DNA of 64,000 nt from Synergistaceae bacterium (GTDB lineage: Bacteria > Synergistota > Synergistia > Synergistales > Aminobacteriaceae), in contig JAFRAH010000022.1 of the NCBI GenBank assembly GCA_017405525.1, positions 1 through 64,000 of the forward strand, written 5' to 3'. Every line of letters starts with the position of its first letter. Positions within the stretch are counted from its first letter, which is position 1. The translations under genes were made by a program, and so were the position numbers. Positions 47,170 to 58,972 of this stretch are shown here, in pieces. The notes beneath the pieces are model-generated. The model was not told the DNA's origin, made no database searches, and saw only the letters and a list, made by a program, of their open reading frames with translations.

Positions 47170-48762
47170 ATGAAGGCAATAACTTTTCTTCTGTTGTTGT
47201 TTTTCCTCACCCTCCCATTTTACGGCGGCATCTCCCACGCACTGGAGGCCCCGGAAAATTACACCTCCCAAATCCCGGCGGTCGACTTCTACCCGTCGGG
47301 GGCAAAGTTCACGTTCATGGTCGAGCCCCAGAGTCCTGACGGCAACTTCACGGCAGTGTTGCCAGGCTCGTTCAACGTTGACTCGGTACGTCTCGCAAAC
47401 CCTGAGAACGTTTACGGCGACATCAACGTATCCATTCACTCCCGCATGAAGTGGACTCCCTCAGAGCTTGAAGGACTGAGGCAGCAATCGGAGGCACAGA
47501 CCAAGACCGTAAATGACCTCTTGGCCACTAAGTCAGCACTTGAACAGACGCTTAACCTCCTGAAAAATTCCAACCCCGACAAGTCAAAGCCTGATGAACT
47601 TCTCACCTACATAAAGAACGCCCAGTCATTGAGGCTTGAGGTTGAGAATGAGCTATCGGCACTCAAGGCACGGCTCAATGAGGAGCAGGAGAAACAGAGA
47701 ATGCTTCTTGCTGAGCTCCAGGCAAAAAGTCCGAGAGGTGCGAACAACTACATCACAGTTTCCGGGCAGGCAAAAGGCACGGTGTACATTGAGGCGTTCA
47801 CGAACTCAGCGACATGGAGACCGAGATACATCCTCAACCTTGAGACATCATCAGGCAGGATTGAGGCCAGAATGTTCATCAGGGCATTTCAGAGAACGGG
47901 TCTCAGCTACAACGGGAAGATGACCCTCCACACTAAGACCCCTGACGAGCGCATCACTACCCCGGAACTTCAGCCCCTCAAGGTCGGCATAAAGCCCAAG
48001 CAGGAAGTCATAGCGGCAGGCTCAGCGGTTACCCTGAAGAGGAACAACAGAATGTACGAGTCCGCAAGAATGGCAATGCCCGAAGCTGATACGTTCATGG
48101 CCGAAGACACAGCGGAGAACATAGAGGCTGAAGCACCAAGAGCACCGGCAGTAACTGAGACACTCGCAGACCGTGTCCTGAACATTGAGGGGGAACTTCC
48201 CGGTGATGGCACTGAAAGGGAGTTCGAGGTAATCACTGGAAGTTTCTATCTTGACAGCAAGGTTGAGATTACCCTTATACCTGAACAGAGGACGGACGCA
48301 TGGATAGTTGCGAGCATGGACGAGGGGAATGAACACCTTATACCCGGCGAGGCTGAACTCAGGGTAGACAATCATTCGTCAGGGAAGATACACCTTGAGG
48401 AGTACGGCAAGGGACAGCGGAGAATACCCTTCGGTTACGCTGAGCAGATAACCGTGAAGAAGACAGCCCTGATTGAGACGACGGGGGTATCATGGTTCAG
48501 CGGGGTACTGACCAGCGGCTACAAGCTCGAAATCACGAACGGGACAAAATCAGAGCAGGTTATCATCGTGAAGGACAGGCTGCCTGTTCCGATTGACGAA
48601 AAGATAAAGCTGGACGAGAAACGAATAGACCCAAAGGAGAAGGAACGCGACAAGGAGAAACGCCTGACGTGGGAGCTTACAGTTCCAGCCGGGGCGACAG
48701 TGCCGGTAATCGTTGACTACACACTAAGCTATCCTTCAGGTGAGGAGCTGCAATACAGATAA
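47170..48762 (+). CDS. Secreted DUF4139 (mucoidy-inhibitor A-like) protein
   Basis: A 530-residue protein with a signal peptide (MKAITFLLLLFFLTLPFYGGISHA). The N-terminal beta part (about 30-85) is DUF4140-like, with PAVDFYPSGAKFTF. A coiled coil (about 100-185) holds ALKARLNEEQEKQRMLLAELQ, and the C-terminal DUF4139 domain shows ITVSGQ, NSATWRPRYILNL (about 213-225) and YNGKMTLHTKTP. The function of the family is not settled; it often sits with envelope genes. It overlaps the next stop-start by one base, so the operon is continuous. Confidence 0.8.
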   Translation: MKAITFLLLLFFLTLPFYGGISHALEAPENYTSQIPAVDFYPSGAKFTFMVEPQSPDGNFTAVLPGSFNVDSVRLANPENVYGDINVSIHSRMKWTPSELEGLRQQSEAQTKTVNDLLATKSALEQTLNLLKNSNPDKSKPDELLTYIKNAQSLRLEVENELSALKARLNEEQEKQRMLLAELQAKSPRGANNYITVSGQAKGTVYIEAFTNSATWRPRYILNLETSSGRIEARMFIRAFQRTGLSYNGKMTLHTKTPDERITTPELQPLKVGIKPKQEVIAAGSAVTLKRNNRMYESARMAMPEADTFMAEDTAENIEAEAPRAPAVTETLADRVLNIEGELPGDGTEREFEVITGSFYLDSKVEITLIPEQRTDAWIVASMDEGNEHLIPGEAELRVDNHSSGKIHLEEYGKGQRRIPFGYAEQITVKKTALIETTGVSWFSGVLTSGYKLEITNGTKSEQVIIVKDRLPVPIDEKIKLDEKRIDPKEKERDKEKRLTWELTVPAGATVPVIVDYTLSYPSGEELQYR

Positions 48763-49916
48763 TGGGACAGAACAATTTCTTCAAGTGGATAACAGTCCCT
48801 CCAGTTGTTGCGATATTCACGATAATGCTGGCTCGTGCAATGGGGGTTGGAAGTATCGTCGGTGAGGTTGACCTGGCTGTCTGGGGGCTGGTGTGGCTTC
48901 TCTTCATCGTGATGAGTGTTCTCTACGGTCTCTTCATCGTTCACGGCTTCAATGTCGGGCTAATATCCCTTCAGGCACTTGCGCAGGGAGTATTGCTCTG
49001 TCCTATGGCGATAACTTACGGGGCGCGAATGTTCCAGTGGCTCGGAGTAATCATCGCAGTATGTGGAGGGGCGGCACTTCTCGTAGCCTACAACCAAGCC
49101 GAAACAGAACGCAACAAGATTATTCCCGTTGAAGTAGAGAATGACGTAAAGCGAATCCCCTCGAACTTCGCGATAACTGACGACACCGGGGCAATCCTAA
49201 ACCTCACAGATGACATGCTTGAGGTACTTGGTGTTACGCGGACGGGCTACATCGGGAAGAACATAAGCGAATGGTTCAGCCCGGTCTCAAAGACAGCCGA
49301 GATAGACGGGAAAATCTGGGACATTGAACGGAAGAGCCTGGAGGACGGAAAACGCTTCTACTTTGAGCTCCGGCCTAAAGGACTTCCTACGGGTGAGTCA
49401 GGCGGTGATGGCCAGCAGGAGAACAACGGGCCTGCTGAGTTCACGGATCCTGATACACAGCTTCACACGTACCGTTACGGGATGGCTAGAATTTCCGACG
49501 AGCTTTACAGGGCAGGACGCTATAACCGGCCTGTGAGTGCGTTCATGATAAGGCTGGTCTTCCCTCAGTTGCTTCCTGATGACGACATGGAGAAGTACGT
49601 TAGGCCGTTCCGGGCATATTGTGCGCGTGTGAGGAATGACATACGGCAGTCGGACACGGTGATACAGGCCGGGGAGTTCCAGATTATTGCTGTGATGTCT
49701 GAGTGCCCCTATCAGATGGTTGAGGGAATAATAGAGCGTCTCTCGTCCATAGTGAACGCCCTAGTGCCTACGTTTGATGAGTTCCTTCACGTTACGGTGC
49801 TGAACGTCAGCGAGACCTACGAGGGAGGCACTAATCTTCCGACGGCACAGGATCTTGTGGACAAGCTGACACAGCAGATGACCCGGAAATATTCGGCGAC
49901 GGCACTATCACAATGA
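48762..49916 (+). CDS. Membrane protein with PAS-like and degenerate GGDEF domains
   Basis: A 384-residue protein. The first about 110 residues hold three or four membrane segments (FKWITVPPVVAIFTIMLA, LVWLLFIVMSVLYGLFIV, GVIIAVCGGAALLVAY). A PAS-like segment (about 120-190) has ITDDTGAILNLTDDMLEVLG. The C-terminal part (about 225-375) follows the GGDEF fold: DPDTQLHTYRYGMARISDELYRAGRYNRPVSAFMIRL, then SDTVIQAGEFQIIAVM in place of GGDEF. The active signature is lost, so it is probably a c-di-GMP or nucleotide sensor rather than a cyclase. It is located in the LPS operon. Confidence 0.65.
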   Translation: MGQNNFFKWITVPPVVAIFTIMLARAMGVGSIVGEVDLAVWGLVWLLFIVMSVLYGLFIVHGFNVGLISLQALAQGVLLCPMAITYGARMFQWLGVIIAVCGGAALLVAYNQAETERNKIIPVEVENDVKRIPSNFAITDDTGAILNLTDDMLEVLGVTRTGYIGKNISEWFSPVSKTAEIDGKIWDIERKSLEDGKRFYFELRPKGLPTGESGGDGQQENNGPAEFTDPDTQLHTYRYGMARISDELYRAGRYNRPVSAFMIRLVFPQLLPDDDMEKYVRPFRAYCARVRNDIRQSDTVIQAGEFQIIAVMSECPYQMVEGIIERLSSIVNALVPTFDEFLHVTVLNVSETYEGGTNLPTAQDLVDKLTQQMTRKYSATALSQ

Positions 49917-51013
49917 GCAGGAGGCTTCTCAACAAGTTAATACTTGGAGCATGTGCAGGGCCGTTTTTCTTCGGCATCTTGATTTTCGTGCTGATATTCG
50001 TTGCGGGGGATTTGCTCTTTCAGGCGGCAAGGCTCATCATTGAACAGGGGGTAGCATTGGGAGTAGTGGTGAGGCTTTTCTTCTACCGACTTCCTGAAGT
50101 GGCAGTGATGACTATTCCGATGTCCTCCCTTCTGTCTACGTTGCTGGGAATGTCTACCCTGAATGCCGGGAGTGAGTTGATTGCGTTAAAGTCTCTCGGC
50201 ATTCCTTTTACGCGGATATTGAGGCCGGTATTCTTTGCGTCGGTCATTGTGTCGCTTGTGGGCTTGGGCTTCAACGAGACCGTAGTACCTTTCGGGTCAA
50301 TAGCTGCTGACCGTCTCATGAGGTACGAGATCATGAAGAACCAAGCGGCGGCAATTCAGGAGAAGGTATTTCTTCGCGAGGAGGAGAACGGGCAGTTAAA
50401 GCGCGTCCTGTATATCGATGAGCTAGACCCGGAAAAAGGACTCATGAAGGGAATAATAGTTCATGAGTTTGATGACGGGAGGCTTGCGAGAACCCTAAAC
50501 GCAAGGCAGGGGATGTGGCAAAATCTTCAATGGTGGATTGAGGACGGAAGGATGTACGATGTCAACCGTGAAGGTGAAGTGTCGTTATTGCTCCGTTTCG
50601 AGCGTCAGAGGCTGGCATTGAGGATGTCCCCCCAACAATTGCAGCGCAGTACCCGTAAACCCTCGAACATGTCGGCACATGAACTGTGGAGCTATATCAC
50701 TCAGGCTGAAGGTGTAGGTGCTGACCTGTCCAAGCTGTGGGTAATGTTCCACCTGAAACTTGCTGTACCTTGGGCGTGCGTAATCATGGCCGTATTGGGA
50801 GCGGGCTTCGGTGCTTCGAGGCGTGGGCGTTCAGGCGGGGGAGTGGGCTTCGGCATCAGCGTGGTTATGGTCTTCGCGTACTACGTCGTGATGTCGTTGT
50901 GCCGTGCTCTTGGTGAGGCCGGGAATATTCCTGCGGTGATTGCAGGTTGGGGGCCTAATATCGTTTTTCTGGTTGTGGCACTGTTCTTTGCTTGGAGGGT
51001 TGACAGAATATAG
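49913..51013 (+). CDS. LptF/LptG-family LPS export permease
   Basis: A 366-residue permease of the YjgP/YjgQ type that drives lipopolysaccharide to the outer membrane with LptB and LptC. Membrane segments lie at both ends (about 12-35, 50-75, 95-115, then 285-310, 315-335, 342-360), flanking a periplasmic beta-jellyroll (about 135-260). The first half has LPEVAVMTIPMSSLLSTLLGMSTL and ELIALKSLGIPFTRI. LptF versus LptG cannot be decided; only one such gene lies here. The start overlaps the previous gene by 4 bases. Confidence 0.85.
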   Translation: MSRRLLNKLILGACAGPFFFGILIFVLIFVAGDLLFQAARLIIEQGVALGVVVRLFFYRLPEVAVMTIPMSSLLSTLLGMSTLNAGSELIALKSLGIPFTRILRPVFFASVIVSLVGLGFNETVVPFGSIAADRLMRYEIMKNQAAAIQEKVFLREEENGQLKRVLYIDELDPEKGLMKGIIVHEFDDGRLARTLNARQGMWQNLQWWIEDGRMYDVNREGEVSLLLRFERQRLALRMSPQQLQRSTRKPSNMSAHELWSYITQAEGVGADLSKLWVMFHLKLAVPWACVIMAVLGAGFGASRRGRSGGGVGFGISVVMVFAYYVVMSLCRALGEAGNIPAVIAGWGPNIVFLVVALFFAWRVDRI

Positions 51014-51017
51014 AGAG

Positions 51018-51827
51018 ATGAGCATTTCACTTATTGCCGGGGAAGGTATACTGCCTGTTGAGATTGCTAGGAGACTTAACAAGATACAGCCGCCTTCCCT
51101 CATTCTTGCACTGCGTGATGACCCTGAGACATTGAGACCTTACGCCGGAAGACTCGTACACATGAACACCCCTAACTTAGGCAGGGGTATACGCGAGATA
51201 AAGGCCTTCGGTTCGGACAAGGTGATAATGGCCGGAAGAATACCCAAGAAGATAATTTACTGCCTCCCGTTATTGTTCGACAAGCTGAGCCGCTCAATCC
51301 TGAGAAACAGCCTCCGTGATGACCATTCACTTTTAGGGGCTATTGTGAAGGCACTTGAGGACGAGAGCATCAACGTGATACCCTACTGGCAGATACTCCC
51401 TGAATTTATCGCATCATCCGGGAAACTCTCGGAACGTTCACCGACACAGAAAGAGCTTGATGATGTCGCTTATGGCCGGGAGATTTTGCGGGTAACACTG
51501 CCCTGCTCGTTCGGTCAGGCTGTATGTGTTGCCGGGGGAGCTGTTGTTGCTGTCGAGGCAATGGAGGGGACGGACAAGATGATACAGCGTGCAGGGGAGC
51601 TCTCAGGGCGCGGTGTAGTCGTGAAGATGATGAAGGAGGGTCAGGACATGCGGTATGACCTGCCTACTGTTGGGACTCGAACGCTAGAGAACATGCACAG
51701 GTCAGGGCTTACGTGCCTTGCTGTTGAAGCAGGGAAGACGTTAATACTTGAGCCGGAAAAATTCTTTGTTCTTGCGGACAGGTACAAGATTGCGGTATGG
51801 GGGATAAATGATGCGGAAGAAATTTGA
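51018..51827 (+). CDS. lpxI: UDP-2,3-diacylglucosamine pyrophosphatase, LpxI type
   Basis: A 269-residue enzyme releasing lipid X, an alternative to LpxH. The N-terminus is SISLIAGEGILPVEIARRL. The family blocks are IREIKAFGSDKVIMAGRIPK (about 55-75), LRDDHSLLGAIVKALE, and a C-terminal domain with GAVVAVEAMEGTDKMIQRAG and LPTVGTRTLENM. I place the start at ATG 51018 after the LptF stop; the longer frame adds 26 residues of that gene. It is four genes before lpxB and cooperates with it. Confidence 0.9.
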   Translation: MSISLIAGEGILPVEIARRLNKIQPPSLILALRDDPETLRPYAGRLVHMNTPNLGRGIREIKAFGSDKVIMAGRIPKKIIYCLPLLFDKLSRSILRNSLRDDHSLLGAIVKALEDESINVIPYWQILPEFIASSGKLSERSPTQKELDDVAYGREILRVTLPCSFGQAVCVAGGAVVAVEAMEGTDKMIQRAGELSGRGVVVKMMKEGQDMRYDLPTVGTRTLENMHRSGLTCLAVEAGKTLILEPEKFFVLADRYKIAVWGINDAEEI

Positions 51828-53454
51828 CGCTGCAACTCTGGGCAGAGACCCGGCATTGTCGGAGGCACTGGAATACATACATGAACAGCTCGCGGCAATG
51901 AAGCTGAAGACGAAGGAGGCAATCCGGGCGGAATTGATGTGCGAGGAGTCGCTGGTGAGCCTCATGGACAACGCTGACTTTTCCAGGACGGGGCATTTCA
52001 CGGTGAACGTCAGGAAAGTTTTCGGCACTGTTACTGTCGAGCTGTCTGTTCCTGGGAGGGAGTTCGAGTTTTCGGGGGGGACTGGGATTCAGACGCTGGA
52101 GGATGACGAGGAGCTTCAGGAATCCTACGAGGCAATACGGAGCATAGTCCTCCGCTCATTCTCAGGCAGCATAAGGTACAGGAACTCCGGGAATCTCAAC
52201 ACGGTGCGTATAAAGGCGGTTCGTTCGAGTTACGCCGGGCTGTACCAGACACTTGCGGCATTGTTCCTCGCTGTGGTGTCAGGTGTAATGCTGAGGAATT
52301 TTGCCACCGCTGAGGCCTGCGCTTCCGTCAGCGATAACATCCTCGACCCTGTACGCACGGTGTTCCTCAACGGCCTGAAGATGTGCGCTGTACCGATAGT
52401 GTTCTTCTCGGTCGTGTCATGCATCGCGGACATGGGCGGACTCTCAGGGATGAAGCGGTCAGGAGGAAGGCTCTTCAGGTATTTTGCGGCGGGCATGGTG
52501 CTTAGTCTTGCGCTGGGTTTGTGCCTCATGTACATATTCAGGCCGGGTGAAGGAGTGTATCTTGTCGCAACTTCTTCTGAGACTGTGCAGACTCAATCGC
52601 TGTCGTTCGTCGGAATGCTGGTGAACCTGGTAGCAGGAAACGTAATCAGGCCGTTCCTTGACGGGGACATGCTGCAGATCATGGTGCTTGCGTTCTTCGT
52701 GGGGCTGTCAATCTCCCTGACTGACGCGAAAATCCTCCGCAAGGTCTCCAGCGAGCTAAACATGACGTTCATGAAGATCACGGAAATTTTCCTGTACCTT
52801 ACGCCGCTTGTGATGTTCTGCTCGGCGGCCTCGATGATTATCACGGCAGGAGCTGGGACTCTCGTATCGGCGGCAGGGATAACATTAACGCAGATATTCG
52901 GTCATGCGGTGATACTCGTGATTGTCTGTGTGGCCGTGAAATTCCGGGCAGGGCTGAATCCCCTCACGATGCTGCGGAAATCTGCCCCAATGCTCGCAAC
53001 AGCCTTCAGCACATGCTCAAGCATAGCCGCTATACCTGACAGCATGAAGTGTTCCGACGCGATGGGAATACCGCCCTCCCTTTACTCGTTCTCAGTCCCT
53101 GTAGGCGTGTCAGTCAGCAAGATAACTACCCCGCTGTATTACGTGGTTATGGTGCTGTCAGCGGCAAACCTTTACGGCGTGGACATAACTCCGTCAGCAA
53201 TCGTTCAGCTCTCAGTAACAATCTTGCTCCTGACAGTTACGACTCCTTCAATGCCGGGCGCGGGGTTAATCTCGCTGTCAGTTCTTCTTGCGCAGTCGGG
53301 ATGCCCTCTTGAGTTTGTGGGAATAGCTGTGAGCATTGAGATGATGATAGATTTCACGGGGACAATGACCATATGCCAGGCGAATTTGGCCTGCACAATT
53401 CTTGCGGCGGCGGATGACGGCATTCTTGACCGCCGGAAATACAACAGTCAGTAA
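51808..53454 (+). CDS. Anti-sigma-like ATPase domain fused to a dicarboxylate/amino-acid symporter
   Basis: A 548-residue fusion. Residues about 15-137 resemble the HATPase_c_2 fold of anti-sigma factors: CEESLVSLMDNADF is the helix of the N-box, HFTVNVRKVFGTVTVELSVPGREFEF the strands that follow, and SIRYRNSGNLNTVRI a terminal strand. From about 143 to 548 there is a DAACS symporter (GltP type): LDGDMLQIMVLAFFVGL, KITEIFLYLTPLVMF, STCSSIAAIPDSMKCSDAMGI and SMPGAGLISLSVLL. The usual NMDGT coupling loop is VSKITTP, and the substrate arginine position in the last helix reads Gly. It overlaps the lpxI end by 20 bases. Confidence 0.7.
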   Translation: MMRKKFDAATLGRDPALSEALEYIHEQLAAMKLKTKEAIRAELMCEESLVSLMDNADFSRTGHFTVNVRKVFGTVTVELSVPGREFEFSGGTGIQTLEDDEELQESYEAIRSIVLRSFSGSIRYRNSGNLNTVRIKAVRSSYAGLYQTLAALFLAVVSGVMLRNFATAEACASVSDNILDPVRTVFLNGLKMCAVPIVFFSVVSCIADMGGLSGMKRSGGRLFRYFAAGMVLSLALGLCLMYIFRPGEGVYLVATSSETVQTQSLSFVGMLVNLVAGNVIRPFLDGDMLQIMVLAFFVGLSISLTDAKILRKVSSELNMTFMKITEIFLYLTPLVMFCSAASMIITAGAGTLVSAAGITLTQIFGHAVILVIVCVAVKFRAGLNPLTMLRKSAPMLATAFSTCSSIAAIPDSMKCSDAMGIPPSLYSFSVPVGVSVSKITTPLYYVVMVLSAANLYGVDITPSAIVQLSVTILLLTVTTPSMPGAGLISLSVLLAQSGCPLEFVGIAVSIEMMIDFTGTMTICQANLACTILAAADDGILDRRKYNSQ

Positions 53455-53473
53455 GGAGGCAAAAGGAAGCAAC

Positions 53474-55120
53474 ATGAACAAGAAATTTACGGTCAACGAT
53501 AACAACAAAGAGGAAGCATTATCCGGCGCGCTCGTGTTCATACATGAGAGCTTGGAGGCAATGAAGCACAGCAAAAAGGACGCTAACTATGCTGAACTCA
53601 TGTGCGAGGAAGCATTAGTGAACCTGATGAATCACGCGGACTTCACCAGGCGTAACACATTCAGCGTGAACGTTAGGAGGAGCTTCGGCGATGTGGTGAT
53701 GGATTTTGCCGTTCCTGGTGCTGAGTTCGACTTCGCCGGGGATTTGGGGAGCTTTGAGGGTGATGATGATATTTCCCCAGAGGCTGAAGCGTCAATACGG
53801 AGCCTGTTGCTGCGCTCGTTCGGCAACAGGATAACCTACCGTAACACAAGAGGCTGGAACATAGCGAAAGTACGTGCTTTCCGTTCGTCATACTCGATGC
53901 TGTGGAAGACGCTAACGGCACTGATTCTCGCGGTGATTTCGGGACTTCTTGCGTGTGAGTTTGCTCCAGAGTCTGCGTACATGGCCGTCAACGATAACTT
54001 CCTTGTACTTGTGAGAGACATATTCATGAACGGCCTGAAGATGTGCTCAGTCCCGATAGTGTTCTTGTCCCTCGTGTCATGTCTTGGTGATGCCGGGGGA
54101 TTGGGCGGCATGAAGTCATCGGGGAGCAAAATGCTGAAGTACTCAGTGATGATTCAGGTTATCGTTACGGTGATGGCGTTTGCCCTGATTTGGCTGTTGG
54201 GGACTGGGACGGGCATAAATGTTACGGAAGATGCGGGCGTTGCGGTACAGTCTCAGGGAGCATCATTCTCTTTCAGGGCAATACTAGCCGGACTCATGCC
54301 TGCAAACTTTGTCAGGCCGTTCCTTGACGGGGACATGATACAGCTTCTTGTGCTTGCGGTGCTTATGGGTGTTGCTGTGGGAATGTCGGGGGTGAAGTCG
54401 GCAAAAATATTATTCAGCGACCTCAACTCGATATTCATGAAGGTAACGGAGATTCTGCTTCACATGATCCCGCTGGTTGTATTCTGCTCAATAGCCTCAC
54501 TGATAATCACGACAGGAGCGGAGACTATGATGACTCTTGCCGGGATACTAGGTGCGCTGGTTCTGGGGTACATGCTGATGCTGGCGGTTTATGGAGTCCT
54601 TGTGCAGTTAATCGGCGGGCTTAACCCCGTAACATTCTTCAGGAAGTGCCTGCCTGTGATAACGACAGCCTTCACCACATGCTCAGGGGTTGCGACATTG
54701 CCGGAGAACCTGAAGTGCGCAAAGGCTCTCGGAATCTCGCAGAAGGTATACTCAATCGCGCTTCCTCTGGGAGTATCACTGATAAAGCCGGCTGGAGTGT
54801 TTTACGGGGCAGCAATGGTGATGATTTCCGCGAACATTTACGGGATGAGCCTGACAATCTCGAAAATTTTGATACTGGGAGTGTCGGTAATAATCCTTAG
54901 CAGCATAATTCCGAGCATACCAGGCGGATCAGTTATAGTAATTTCCGCGTTACTGTCTCAGGCTGGGCTGCCTATGGGCATTATTGGGCTTGCGATAAGC
55001 ATTGAGGCAGTGCAGGACATGTTCAACACTGTAGCTACAAGCATGGGGAGCATGACGAGCGTACTTCTTGCGGCGAAGGAGCAGAAGATGATTGACCTCG
55101 ACGAGTACAACCGGCCATGA
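53474..55120 (+). CDS. Second ATPase-symporter fusion, tandem paralogue
   Basis: Also 548 residues with the same layout as the gene before. The N-box copy CEEALVNLMNHADF (about 44-57) is a closer match to active anti-sigma kinases (EEALxNxxNHA). The glycine-box aspartate is not kept: FAVPGAEFDF. The symporter half has LDGDMIQLLVLAVLMGV, TCSGVATLPENLKCAKALGI, SIPGGSVIVISALLSQAG, and a last helix SIEAVQDMFNT where the substrate arginine is Asn. The NMDGT loop reads LIKPAGV. Start ATG 53474 by AAAGGAAG; the longer frame begins inside the first copy. It ends in ATGA with lpxB. Confidence 0.7.
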   Translation: MNKKFTVNDNNKEEALSGALVFIHESLEAMKHSKKDANYAELMCEEALVNLMNHADFTRRNTFSVNVRRSFGDVVMDFAVPGAEFDFAGDLGSFEGDDDISPEAEASIRSLLLRSFGNRITYRNTRGWNIAKVRAFRSSYSMLWKTLTALILAVISGLLACEFAPESAYMAVNDNFLVLVRDIFMNGLKMCSVPIVFLSLVSCLGDAGGLGGMKSSGSKMLKYSVMIQVIVTVMAFALIWLLGTGTGINVTEDAGVAVQSQGASFSFRAILAGLMPANFVRPFLDGDMIQLLVLAVLMGVAVGMSGVKSAKILFSDLNSIFMKVTEILLHMIPLVVFCSIASLIITTGAETMMTLAGILGALVLGYMLMLAVYGVLVQLIGGLNPVTFFRKCLPVITTAFTTCSGVATLPENLKCAKALGISQKVYSIALPLGVSLIKPAGVFYGAAMVMISANIYGMSLTISKILILGVSVIILSSIIPSIPGGSVIVISALLSQAGLPMGIIGLAISIEAVQDMFNTVATSMGSMTSVLLAAKEQKMIDLDEYNRP

Positions 55121-56235
55121 AGAATATTTTTGTGTCATGTGGCGAGGTAAGCGGCGACATTTACGCGGGCCTCTTGATCCGTGAACTCCTGAAGCTCAAT
55201 CCCTCCCTTGAAGTCTGGGGAATGCTCGGCAGTGAAGGCGAGTCATCAGGAGGGCGTGCAGTCTGGAGCTACGAGGAGTTGAAGCTGATGGGAATCCTCG
55301 AAATAATCCCGGCAATCCCGCGTCTTCTCAGGCTCAAGGCTAGTATTACCCGCGAGGTCGTGAGGGCTGACCCTGATGCTGTGGTGCTCATTGACTGCCC
55401 TGACTTCCACCTTATGCTTGCCCGTTCACTCAGGAAGTCAGGCTACAAGGGGCGGATAATCTCACTCATTCCCCCGACAGTGTGGGCATGGCGTGCCGGA
55501 AGGGTCAAGAATCTTAAGCGCGACTTTGACCTTTGCCTGCCGCTTTTCTCGTTTGAACACAAGTTCCTGCTTGAACATGGCGTAAATTCCCTGTGGAAGT
55601 CCCACCCGTTAGTGCATGACCTAGAGGGCGTGAAGGTCTCTGAGTCATTCCGTGAACGTTTCGGCGGTGAGAGAGTGATTGCGCTCATGCCGGGCAGTAG
55701 ACGCTACGATATACGCTTCCACCTCGATATACTGCTTGGGACTGCGGGACTCCTCCGGGCTGAAGGCTACATGCCTGTGTTCTCGGTTGCGCAGGGACTG
55801 ACGGGCAGCCTTGCGGATGAACTCAGGGAACGTGTCAGGGCTTCCGGGTTCGAGTTCTGGGAGGGCAGCGGCCGCGAACTCATGGCGGGGTCTCTTGCGG
55901 TTGCGGGAGTGTCTGGGACGGTTGCGGTTGAGGCCATGCTTCTTGGGCGGTTCATGGTCGTGATCTACAACATGAAGAGGATAACTCACGCGATACTGAA
56001 ACGCCTTGTCCACGTCAGGAATATCTCAATCCCCAACATGCTCACAGGCAGGCAGGTATATCCTGAGCTTCTCTGTGATGATGCCACGCCTGAGAGAATC
56101 ACGCAGGAACTTCAACGCTACCTTGATGATGTGAACGTGAAGAATGAGACCGATACCCTCCTCCAGAATGCGCGCGCCTCAATGGGAACGGTTAATGCCG
56201 CAGAATTTTGGGCCGGGTGTATAATCACACAATAA
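55117..56235 (+). CDS. lpxB: Lipid-A-disaccharide synthase
   Basis: Joins lipid X with UDP-diacylglucosamine to form the lipid A backbone. The 372-residue GT19 enzyme has CGEVSGDIYAGLLIREL (about 8-24), ELKLMGILEIIPAIPRLLRL, VVLIDCPDFHLMLA (about 89-102), PTVWAWRAGRVK and the C-terminal LMPGSRRYDI and VSGTVAVEAMLLG blocks. Its ATG overlaps the second fusion's stop by four bases, so the three genes are translationally linked. The last enzyme of the operon. Confidence 0.95.
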   Translation: MKNIFVSCGEVSGDIYAGLLIRELLKLNPSLEVWGMLGSEGESSGGRAVWSYEELKLMGILEIIPAIPRLLRLKASITREVVRADPDAVVLIDCPDFHLMLARSLRKSGYKGRIISLIPPTVWAWRAGRVKNLKRDFDLCLPLFSFEHKFLLEHGVNSLWKSHPLVHDLEGVKVSESFRERFGGERVIALMPGSRRYDIRFHLDILLGTAGLLRAEGYMPVFSVAQGLTGSLADELRERVRASGFEFWEGSGRELMAGSLAVAGVSGTVAVEAMLLGRFMVVIYNMKRITHAILKRLVHVRNISIPNMLTGRQVYPELLCDDATPERITQELQRYLDDVNVKNETDTLLQNARASMGTVNAAEFWAGCIITQ

Positions 56236-56365: not shown

Positions 56366-57691
56366 ATGGTCTTCTCGTCAGGAGTGTTTATGTTTCTCTT
56401 CCTTCCCCTCCTCCTCATTATCTACTACTCAGCAAATAGCCGGAAAGTCCGCAACTACATTCTTCTTGCCGCAAGCCTCATGTTCTACGCGTGGGGTGAG
56501 CCTGTCTTTGTGTTCATCATGCTGGCTTCAGTCTTCGTGAACTGGTCTCTATCTCTGGCCATGCACAAATCACCCCGTCCCAAATTATGGCTCATTCTCG
56601 CAGTCAGCCTTGATGTCTTTCTTCTGGGAGTGTTCAAGTATGCCGGGTTCATCACGGAAAATCTGGGGTTTGAGCGCGTCAACATTGCCCTTCCGATCGG
56701 AATATCATTTTTCACGTTCCAGACGATGAGTTACGTCTTTGATGTCTACTACGGAAATTCTGAGCCCCAAAGAAACCCGCTTTATGCCGCGCTGTATATC
56801 TCGTTCTTCCCGCAGCTCATAGCCGGTCCGATAGTCCGCTACAACCAGATAGAGAGTGAGATTACCGGGAGGGTTGAGAGCCTTGACCTGTTCAGTGAGG
56901 GAGTGAGACGGTTCATTTATGGCTTGGGAAAAAAGGTACTCCTCGCTAACTTCATGGCTCAGGTTGCGGATAACGTCTTCGGCTATATCGTGAACCCTTC
57001 AGTGATGATGTCATGGCTTGGTGCTGTGGCCTATACCTTCCAGATATATTTTGACTTCTCAGGTTATAGCGATATGGCTATAGGCTTGGGTCTTATGTTC
57101 GGATTTCACTTCGAGGAAAATTTCAGTTACCCCTACATGTCTTCAAGCATCACGGAATTTTGGAGGAGGTGGCATATCTCATTGTCTGCATGGTTTAGGG
57201 ATTACGTCTATATCCCAATGGGAGGCAGCAGGGTATCACGTTCAAGATGGCTGGTGAATATCTTTACGGTCTGGCTCTTGACTGGTATATGGCACGGGGC
57301 TAACTGGACGTTCATTCTCTGGGGGATGATCTACTTCGTCCTTCTTGTGCTCGAACGCATGACCGGGAGAAAGCCGGGGCATTTCCTGACGATGCTGGCG
57401 GTGATATTGGCGTGGGTGATATTCAGGTCTGAGACAGTAACGGAAGGGCTGGGCTATATTGCCTCAATGTTCGGGCTGAAGGGCAATGCTTTTTGGGACG
57501 GAGGGTTCATGTTTTACCTCAATGGGACATGGCCGGTAATGCTTTGTGCGTTCATTGGGATTTTCCCGGCGGTGAAGGTGCTGAAACGTTATTCGTGGCT
57601 TGAGGCAGTTTTTCTGTGTGGTGTTCTGATTGTCTCGGCATGTGAATTAGTCAGTTCAAGCTACAACCCATTCATATATTTCAATTTCTGA
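56366..57691 (+). CDS. MBOAT O-acyltransferase (AlgI/PatA-like)
   Basis: A 441-residue membrane-bound O-acyltransferase with about ten hydrophobic segments. The catalytic histidine is in GIWHGANWTFILWGMIYFVLLVLE (about 310-333), and the conserved YFDFSGYSDMAIGLG and FWRRWHISLSAWFRDYVYIPMGGSR (about 267-291) blocks are typical of AlgI. It moves acetyl groups across the membrane for surface polysaccharide or peptidoglycan. GGGAGGG precedes the ATG. The DHHW partner follows at 15 bases. Confidence 0.92.
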   Translation: MVFSSGVFMFLFLPLLLIIYYSANSRKVRNYILLAASLMFYAWGEPVFVFIMLASVFVNWSLSLAMHKSPRPKLWLILAVSLDVFLLGVFKYAGFITENLGFERVNIALPIGISFFTFQTMSYVFDVYYGNSEPQRNPLYAALYISFFPQLIAGPIVRYNQIESEITGRVESLDLFSEGVRRFIYGLGKKVLLANFMAQVADNVFGYIVNPSVMMSWLGAVAYTFQIYFDFSGYSDMAIGLGLMFGFHFEENFSYPYMSSSITEFWRRWHISLSAWFRDYVYIPMGGSRVSRSRWLVNIFTVWLLTGIWHGANWTFILWGMIYFVLLVLERMTGRKPGHFLTMLAVILAWVIFRSETVTEGLGYIASMFGLKGNAFWDGGFMFYLNGTWPVMLCAFIGIFPAVKVLKRYSWLEAVFLCGVLIVSACELVSSSYNPFIYFNF

Positions 57692-57706
57692 TGAGGTGAT
57701 GAGAGC

Positions 57707-58972
57707 ATGGACAAGCCCGGAAAATTCACTGCATTATTTTTTCTCGTTGTGGTAATGTCGTTCATGTTCCTGGTCGCTGCCAGCGTTGCAGTAAAACAAC
57801 TGAACAAGGTAGCAAACCCTGAGACTACCAATAAGCCTGTTCCTGTTGACTGGGAGGAGTTTTACCCGTTCGGCGACGGAAAGGTACACACACCCCCTCC
57901 CAAAAATGAAACCATGAGTGAATACGTGAAACGAAAGCTCGAAGAATACACCTCGGAATATCTCATAGCCCGGCAAAAATTCGTTGAGGCCGCCAAGAAA
58001 TACGAGGAGCTTGCGGGCTGGAACATGGCCTCAGTCTACAGCTACAACCCTGTGATAAAGCTGCAAGATGGATTCTTGTCGGGTATAGTCGAGAGCCGGG
58101 ACGTTTCAGGGAATGCTGAGGCATTGAGGGACTTCAACGAGTTCTGCAGGAAAAATGGGGCTGAGCTGGTATACCTCAACTTTCCGGCCAAGATATGCAG
58201 GTCTCAGGACAACGGTATATCCGGGACGATAGACTACACTAACCAGAATGCTGACAGGCTTTTGTCCCGTCTCGGTGAACTGGGCGTGAAGTATTACGAC
58301 TTCCGGGAGCTCCTCCACAATGACGGGAGGGATCATCACGGGGCATTCTTCAGGACAGACCACCACTGGAGACCTGAGTCTGGGCTGTGGGCGGCGGGGC
58401 ATATACTGCGTATCTTGAGGGATGATTACGGCTGGCAAGTCAGCCCCGGAATACTTGACCCTGGAAATTTCGAGTACGTCATCTATCCTGAGTGGTTCTT
58501 GGGCTCTCAGGGAAAGAAGCTCACACTATCACGAACTGAGCCTGACGACTTCATGATGATATATCCCAAGTTCAAGGTGAGCTTGGACTGCAGAATACCG
58601 AATGAAGGTGTTGACACTGCGGGAAATTTCAGCGTCATCTACAACTTTAAGGCCGTTGAGGAAAAAGACTACTACACTAAGAGCCCGTATCATGCTTACG
58701 TTTATGGGGATCAGGCACTAATTGAGATAACGAACATTCAAGCGGGCAACAAAAAACGCATCCTCCTCATTCATGATTCATTCTCTGATGTGGTAATACC
58801 CTTCCTGTCTTTGGGGATAGGCCACACCTGCGCAATAGACCTCCGGCAGTTCATGGGGAGCGTTGAGGGCATCATTAAGTCAGAGAGACCTGATGTTGTG
58901 GTAGTCGCCTACAACTCTTCGATACCGGGACGCATGGACGGCCTGAACAGGAAGTTCTATGATTTCCGTTAG
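57707..58972 (+). CDS. DHHW/SGNH-type O-acetyltransferase partner (AlgX/AlgJ-like)
   Basis: A 421-residue protein with an N-terminal signal anchor (about 9-30) and a periplasmic domain. The family motif DHHW is at about 218-221, within RTDHHWRPESGLWAAG. The serine-histidine site is in ILLIHDSFSDVVIPFLSLGIGHTCAIDLRQF (about 350-380). Such proteins receive acetyl groups from an MBOAT partner and modify polysaccharide. Strongly coupled to the preceding gene by position. The acceptor is unknown, but lipid A or capsular sugars are candidates. Confidence 0.85.
   Translation: MDKPGKFTALFFLVVVMSFMFLVAASVAVKQLNKVANPETTNKPVPVDWEEFYPFGDGKVHTPPPKNETMSEYVKRKLEEYTSEYLIARQKFVEAAKKYEELAGWNMASVYSYNPVIKLQDGFLSGIVESRDVSGNAEALRDFNEFCRKNGAELVYLNFPAKICRSQDNGISGTIDYTNQNADRLLSRLGELGVKYYDFRELLHNDGRDHHGAFFRTDHHWRPESGLWAAGHILRILRDDYGWQVSPGILDPGNFEYVIYPEWFLGSQGKKLTLSRTEPDDFMMIYPKFKVSLDCRIPNEGVDTAGNFSVIYNFKAVEEKDYYTKSPYHAYVYGDQALIEITNIQAGNKKRILLIHDSFSDVVIPFLSLGIGHTCAIDLRQFMGSVEGIIKSERPDVVVVAYNSSIPGRMDGLNRKFYDFR

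Follow-up and report, generated by a model that had tools for sequence, protein, structure and literature searches.

Glutamate-type carriers of the SDF family (PF00375) are best understood from GltPh, in which Asp405 is a Na+ ligand, Arg397 binds the acidic side chain of the substrate and Asp394 binds its amino group; the N-terminus of GltPh is cytoplasmic and runs directly into the first transmembrane helix (TM1), and characterised members of the family are trimers. GHKL domains of the RsbW lineage have STAS proteins and sigma factors as binding partners. How sodium coupling is gained and lost among SDF carriers is still being actively studied, and proton-coupled relatives are described in which Thr92 is replaced by a hydrophobic residue, Met311 by Leu and Asp405 by Asn, with Glu279 as the putative proton site (PMC12668577). 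Transporters that also signal are represented by CbrA, a proton-driven transceptor of another fold that has a lysine (K196) in its sodium site (PMC13022988), and by the ammonium transporter-histidine kinase of Kuenenia, likewise a transceptor (PMC5764959). For a fusion of an anti-sigma-lineage (HATPase_c_2-like) domain to an SDF carrier no paper was found in the open-access library searched, in line with an earlier note on this DNA, which did not know the combination as described; since close relatives are, in addition, confined to two phyla (below), the possibility that the fusion belongs to a common known family was rejected.

Two fusion genes between lpxI and lpxB

The window, i.e. the whole 64,000-nucleotide stretch of Synergistaceae DNA analysed here, encodes two such fusions on its forward strand, between lpxI (UDP-2,3-diacylglucosamine diphosphatase; 51018..51827, +; Pfam LpxI_N and LpxI_C) and lpxB (55117..56235, +; Pfam LpxB). 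As the earlier note had it, both proteins comprise 548 residues; FUS1 (51808..53454, +) and FUS2 (53474..55120, +) each consist of a degenerate GHKL domain followed by an SDF carrier. The tight overlap that had been reported for the cluster holds at its outer ends, where the start of FUS1 overlaps the 3' end of lpxI by 20 nt and the stop of FUS2 overlaps lpxB by 4 nt, but not between the two fusion genes, which lie 19 nt apart and have a Shine-Dalgarno-like AAGGAGG ahead of FUS2. FUS2 starts at the ATG at 53474, with an alternative TTG at 53402, and lpxI probably starts at Met27 of its listed reading frame (which opens at 50940), the alignment of its relatives beginning at residue 27. The frames of FUS1 and FUS2 are intact and FUS1 orthologues give dN/dS values of 0.13-0.23 for either half, so that purifying selection acts on both halves of the fusion, and a reading of the window's copies as pseudogenes was rejected.

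Upstream of lpxI lie genes for an LptF/LptG permease, a membrane protein with no significant match in Pfam and a DUF4139 protein. At window 48762-49916 the lptF/lpxI operon encodes a conserved membrane protein, again with no significant Pfam match, whose C-terminal half resembles to the eye a degenerate PAS/GGDEF protein. Directly after lpxB, at window 56366-58972, an MBOAT acyltransferase gene is followed by one for an AlgX-like SGNH protein, together an alginate-type O-acetylation pair; in the relatives inspected different genes follow lpxB.

A genome survey of the kind the earlier note had proposed found that the fusions recur in Synergistota and Spirochaetota, in an lpx setting that is recurrent but not universal. 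Fused frames are present in 30 of 188 Synergistota genomes (28 of the 43 of the window's genus, and two from a second genus of its family) and in 6 or 7 of 393 sampled Spirochaetota. When 84,980 species were scanned by peptide pattern, a method that reaches close relatives only, relatives came solely from these two phyla. Among the matches listed in a plasmid search with FUS1 there were only unfused carriers, none of which extended into the N-domain proper. The carrier halves of the fusions cluster apart from unfused carriers with an SH-aLRT support of 97%, a single unfused long-branch row falling among them, and the Lys-type spirochaete copies described below nest, in this carrier tree, among the lpx-locus copies of the window's genus, which suggests transfer between rumen bacteria. 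Among related bacteria from gut and rumen, the fusion turns up repeatedly within the lipid A operon.

A carrier fold with an altered ion site

Pfam SDF matches cover residues 146-534 of FUS1 (52243..53409, +; E 5.2e-73) and 142-535 of FUS2 (53897..55078, +; E 1.5e-68). A full-length AlphaFold model of FUS2, built from 29 sequences with a mean pLDDT of 77, superposes on GltPh and GltTk (TM up to 0.87 to individual chains), and its TM1 begins at residue 141, a few residues past the N-domain. The serine- and glycine-rich tips of HP1 and HP2 are retained in both carriers, and so are most residues of the substrate site in HP1, HP2 and TM8. The earlier description of a complete GltP-type carrier is accordingly borne out for the fold, but the residues that bind Na+ and acidic substrates are unlike those of GltP.

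With GltPh numbering transferred through an alignment with the phylum's unfused carriers, the motif Asn310-Met311-Asp312 reads Ser-Lys-Ile in FUS1 and Ile-Lys-Pro in FUS2, the lysine at position 311 being Lys438 of both proteins (53119..53121 and 54785..54787, both +). Asp405 is Asn in FUS1 and Ser in FUS2, Arg397 is Gly and Asn, respectively, and the Thr/Ser of TM3 is not retained; the signature of Na+-coupled SDF carriers (Asn310-Met311-Asp312 with Asp405) is therefore lacking in both. Nor do they show that of the proton-coupled ExtH group, since 311 is Lys, position 279 is Ile or Val with no Glu at this putative proton site, and Asn405 occurs in FUS1 only; set against the hydrophobic 92, M311L and D405N of the proton-coupled relatives, the Lys311 fusions represent a further departure. 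The lysine is near-invariant: of 28 lpx-locus copies 27 have it, the frameshifted gene L135 alone having Gln instead, and it occurs in all four related spirochaete copies, in contrast to Met in 49 of 55 unfused carriers. Among the lpx-locus copies Asp405 is absent, with Asn its commonest replacement (17/28), and Arg397 is lost in nearly all, Asn401 being lost in FUS1 and FUS2 as well; Asp394 and Thr398 are kept in 26 and 27 of the 28, respectively. From the alignment, Lys438 would be expected to lie in the Na+ region of the fold.

Other fusions carry NMDG or NMN (spirochaete groups), NMH (the second genus) or Leu at 311, and the retention of these forms implies that the change to Lys arose within the fused family. 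The Leu form belongs to a third fusion paralogue in the window's own genome (G000:C25:36941-38584; L146 6436-8088), which keeps Arg397 and has as neighbours genes for a MatE transporter, a serpin, a tRNA-binding-domain protein and an iron alcohol dehydrogenase. The divergent fusions with NMDG or NMN (L086, L079, L112, L117, L096, L075-L078, L094 and L095) are mostly from Spirochaetota; several of them lack Asp394, the amino-group ligand, and so probably carry other substrates.

Lys311 is not restricted to fusions, a possibility that was rejected on finding it in four unfused carriers of one genome. These are encoded in tandem at 5612-10612 of L249 (G039:C10), from a different family of the same order, and all four have Lys311 and Asn405, have lost Arg397 and Asn401 and keep Asp394. 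They occupy a separate, long branch of the carrier tree, and their lysine is apparently a case of convergence, to be read with caution as long branches meet there.

A degenerate GHKL domain ahead of the carrier

The earlier note likened roughly the first 137 residues to RsbW-type domains, a resemblance that proves to be homology, since a family profile finds domains with complete RsbW motifs and the AlphaFold model matches SpoIIAB, UsfX and RsbW best. In Pfam, the domain search that had been suggested, HATPase_c_2 (PF13581) is below threshold and appears in FUS2 only (E 0.19 at full length and 0.019 for the domain alone, 12-15 bits against a curated 27.4), no match being listed for FUS1, although the best family member reaches E 6e-4. 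The profile, A2, was built from 21 family N-domains and matches complete RsbW-type domains with E values of 1e-7 to 1e-10; its Synergistota matches are standalone proteins of ~135-160 residues and phosphatase-linked domains, and the matched domains keep the full motifs AEEIFVNIAHYAY, FTDSG and GGLGI. A PDB sequence search with the N-domain profile gave no meaningful match. The FUS1 domain (51811..52242, +) was placed by profile match and by alignment with RsbW-type domains; that of FUS2 (53474..53902, +) is modelled, on the basis of 21 sequences, with a pLDDT of 78 in the order strand-helix-helix-strand-strand-helix-strand-strand. This model adopts the GHKL fold on which the earlier note had made its reading depend, and its top six PDB matches are all SpoIIAB (E 3e-5 to 7e-4, TM 0.55-0.68), followed by UsfX and RsbW.

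The N-box EEALVNLMNHA noted previously in the second copy is found at FUS2 residues 45-55 (EEALVNL at 53606..53626, +). Its Glu46 (FUS2 numbering), the catalytic Glu, is invariant in 29 sequences, whereas the Mg-binding Asn of the box is not conserved, being Asn50 in FUS2 and a few others and Ser in FUS1. The G1 box of FUS2 has degenerated to VPGAEF (53711..53728, +), with the Gly retained and the adenine-binding Asp gone, and in a joint alignment the G1 Asp and the GGLG lid are absent from the fused domains and present in 7/7 RsbW-type domains. Owing to these losses the N-domain is, judged by its motifs, very probably not an ATPase; that reading was rejected, and the ATPase or nucleotide sensor of the earlier note is unsupported. 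Since STAS proteins and sigma factors are the partners of this lineage, docking is the obvious role to conjecture, although a domain that did no more than dock would hardly be expected to keep Glu46 invariant in an otherwise lost ATP site. The window's genome encodes STAS proteins elsewhere, as well as intact HATPase_c_2 proteins, but the loci inspected show no partner gene linked to the fusions.

Proposed mechanism, rival readings and comparison with known systems

The degenerate ion site and its lysine suggest an undescribed, sodium-independent carrier or sensor. Our preferred reading, to which we give a probability of about one half, is that FUS1 and FUS2 are Na+-independent SDF carriers or transceptors with Lys311 in the place of Na+ and a pseudo-GHKL docking domain. 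These GltPh-fold membrane proteins would no longer use sodium; the fixed Lys438 would substitute for the bound ion and may hold or gate the substrate site. The pseudo-GHKL domain would lie on the cytoplasmic N-terminus, to judge by GltPh topology, just ahead of TM1, where it would serve protein docking or regulation rather than ATP hydrolysis; given the trimers of characterised relatives, three such domains would sit under the scaffold. The predicted function of the pair is most likely that of a cation-independent or proton-gated amino-acid carrier, its ligand probably having an amino group and no acidic side chain, and its state may be reported to, or controlled by, a putative cytoplasmic partner in the manner of a transceptor. 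More speculatively, and as a possibility we regard as tentative, the fusions could form a third ion class among glutamate-type carriers, one whose Lys311 permanently takes the place of Na+ and whose transport is cation-independent or gated by a lysine proton, with the pseudo-GHKL domain making the protein a transceptor with a partner-switching output.

As a first rival, the fusions might be amino-acid symporters of the ordinary kind, coupled to protons or sodium and equipped with a regulatory domain at the N-terminus, whose altered residues do no more than tune specificity; the conserved carrier fold and HP1/HP2 tips, the retention of Asp394 and Thr398 and the low dN/dS are what such symporters would show, but Lys rather than Met or Leu at 311, the loss of Asn310, Asp312, Asp405 and the TM3 Thr/Ser, and the want of a Glu at 279 make this rather unlikely. 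A pure receptor, whose carrier half binds ligand without transport while the pseudo-GHKL domain signals to a STAS- or sigma-type partner, would fit the degenerate ion sites, the descent of the N-domain from partner-switching proteins and the presence in the genome of STAS and active HATPase_c_2 proteins; we hold it to be about as unlikely as the first, as HP1, HP2 and TM8 largely keep their substrate-site residues and the loci inspected contain no linked partner gene. That the N-domain is an active, ATP-binding anti-sigma kinase tethered to the carrier is most improbable with the G1 Asp missing in every aligned fused domain, the GGLG lid missing and the N-box Asn not conserved, even though the RsbW/SpoIIAB fold, the invariant Glu46 and the Asn50 still present in FUS2 speak in its favour.

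The remaining alternative, a dedicated part of the lipid A or LPS pathway acting between LpxI and LpxB to move or sense a precursor, takes its appeal from the location: within the window's genus the lpxI-lpxB interval holds one to three fusions in 20 species and a C-terminal remnant in one (21 species), with short overlaps. Frameshifted, internally deleted or remnant fusions stand in this interval at L135, L136, L137 and L246; frameshifted or deleted copies include the middle copy of L125, an assembly error being possible for each of it, L135, L136 and L137. Against a lipid A component, 18 congeners have lpxI directly beside lpxB and no fusion there, on the LpxB tree the fusion switches between present and absent at least 5-8 times (eight changes are required, at least five of them on well-supported branches), and fusions at other loci adjoin LysR, alcohol dehydrogenase, MatE, AMP-ligase or DnaJ-domain genes. 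A gene that is absent, frameshifted or truncated in many congeners is dispensable at this site, and with copies decaying and related fusions elsewhere a lipid A role is not required; a fixed role was rejected on the 18 species without the gene, a dedicated component is very unlikely, and the link to envelope synthesis drawn in the earlier note is weak. The gene recurs between lpxI and lpxB, but its function does not require that location.

The natural series at position 311 (NMDG, Leu and Lys in fused carriers, together with an apparently separate Lys lineage) makes the role of this position directly testable, and the fusion hints that carriers of host-associated Synergistota and Spirochaetota may take part in signalling.

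With GltPh, GltTk and GltP the fusions share the complete carrier fold, the re-entrant loop motifs, Asp394 and Thr398, but differ in the NMD motif broken by Lys311, in the loss of Asp405, Arg397 and Asn401 and in the extra N-domain. Loss of Na+ ligands is common to them and the proton-coupled and uncoupled clades ExtH and ExtInt (PMC12668577), as is Asn405 in FUS1 and most lpx-locus copies, although the fusions have Lys rather than Leu or Met at 311 and have lost Asp312 as well. The L249 carriers share Lys311, the losses at 405, 397 and 401, Asp394 and a tandem layout with FUS1 and FUS2, but have no N-domain and stand on a separate branch. The fused N-domain has the fold, the strand-helix order and the N-box Glu of the anti-sigma factors SpoIIAB, RsbW and UsfX, from which it differs in its missing G1 Asp and GGLG lid, its unconserved N-box Asn and its attachment to a membrane carrier. 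Like the SLC5-STAC histidine kinases CbrA and CrbS and the Kuenenia kinase, FUS1 and FUS2 covalently join a transport fold to a domain of GHKL lineage in one chain, and CbrA has a lysine in its Na+ site as they do at position 311; unlike these, the transport fold is that of an SDF carrier, and the GHKL domain is N-terminal, degenerate in its ATP-site motifs and devoid of a histidine phosphotransfer part.
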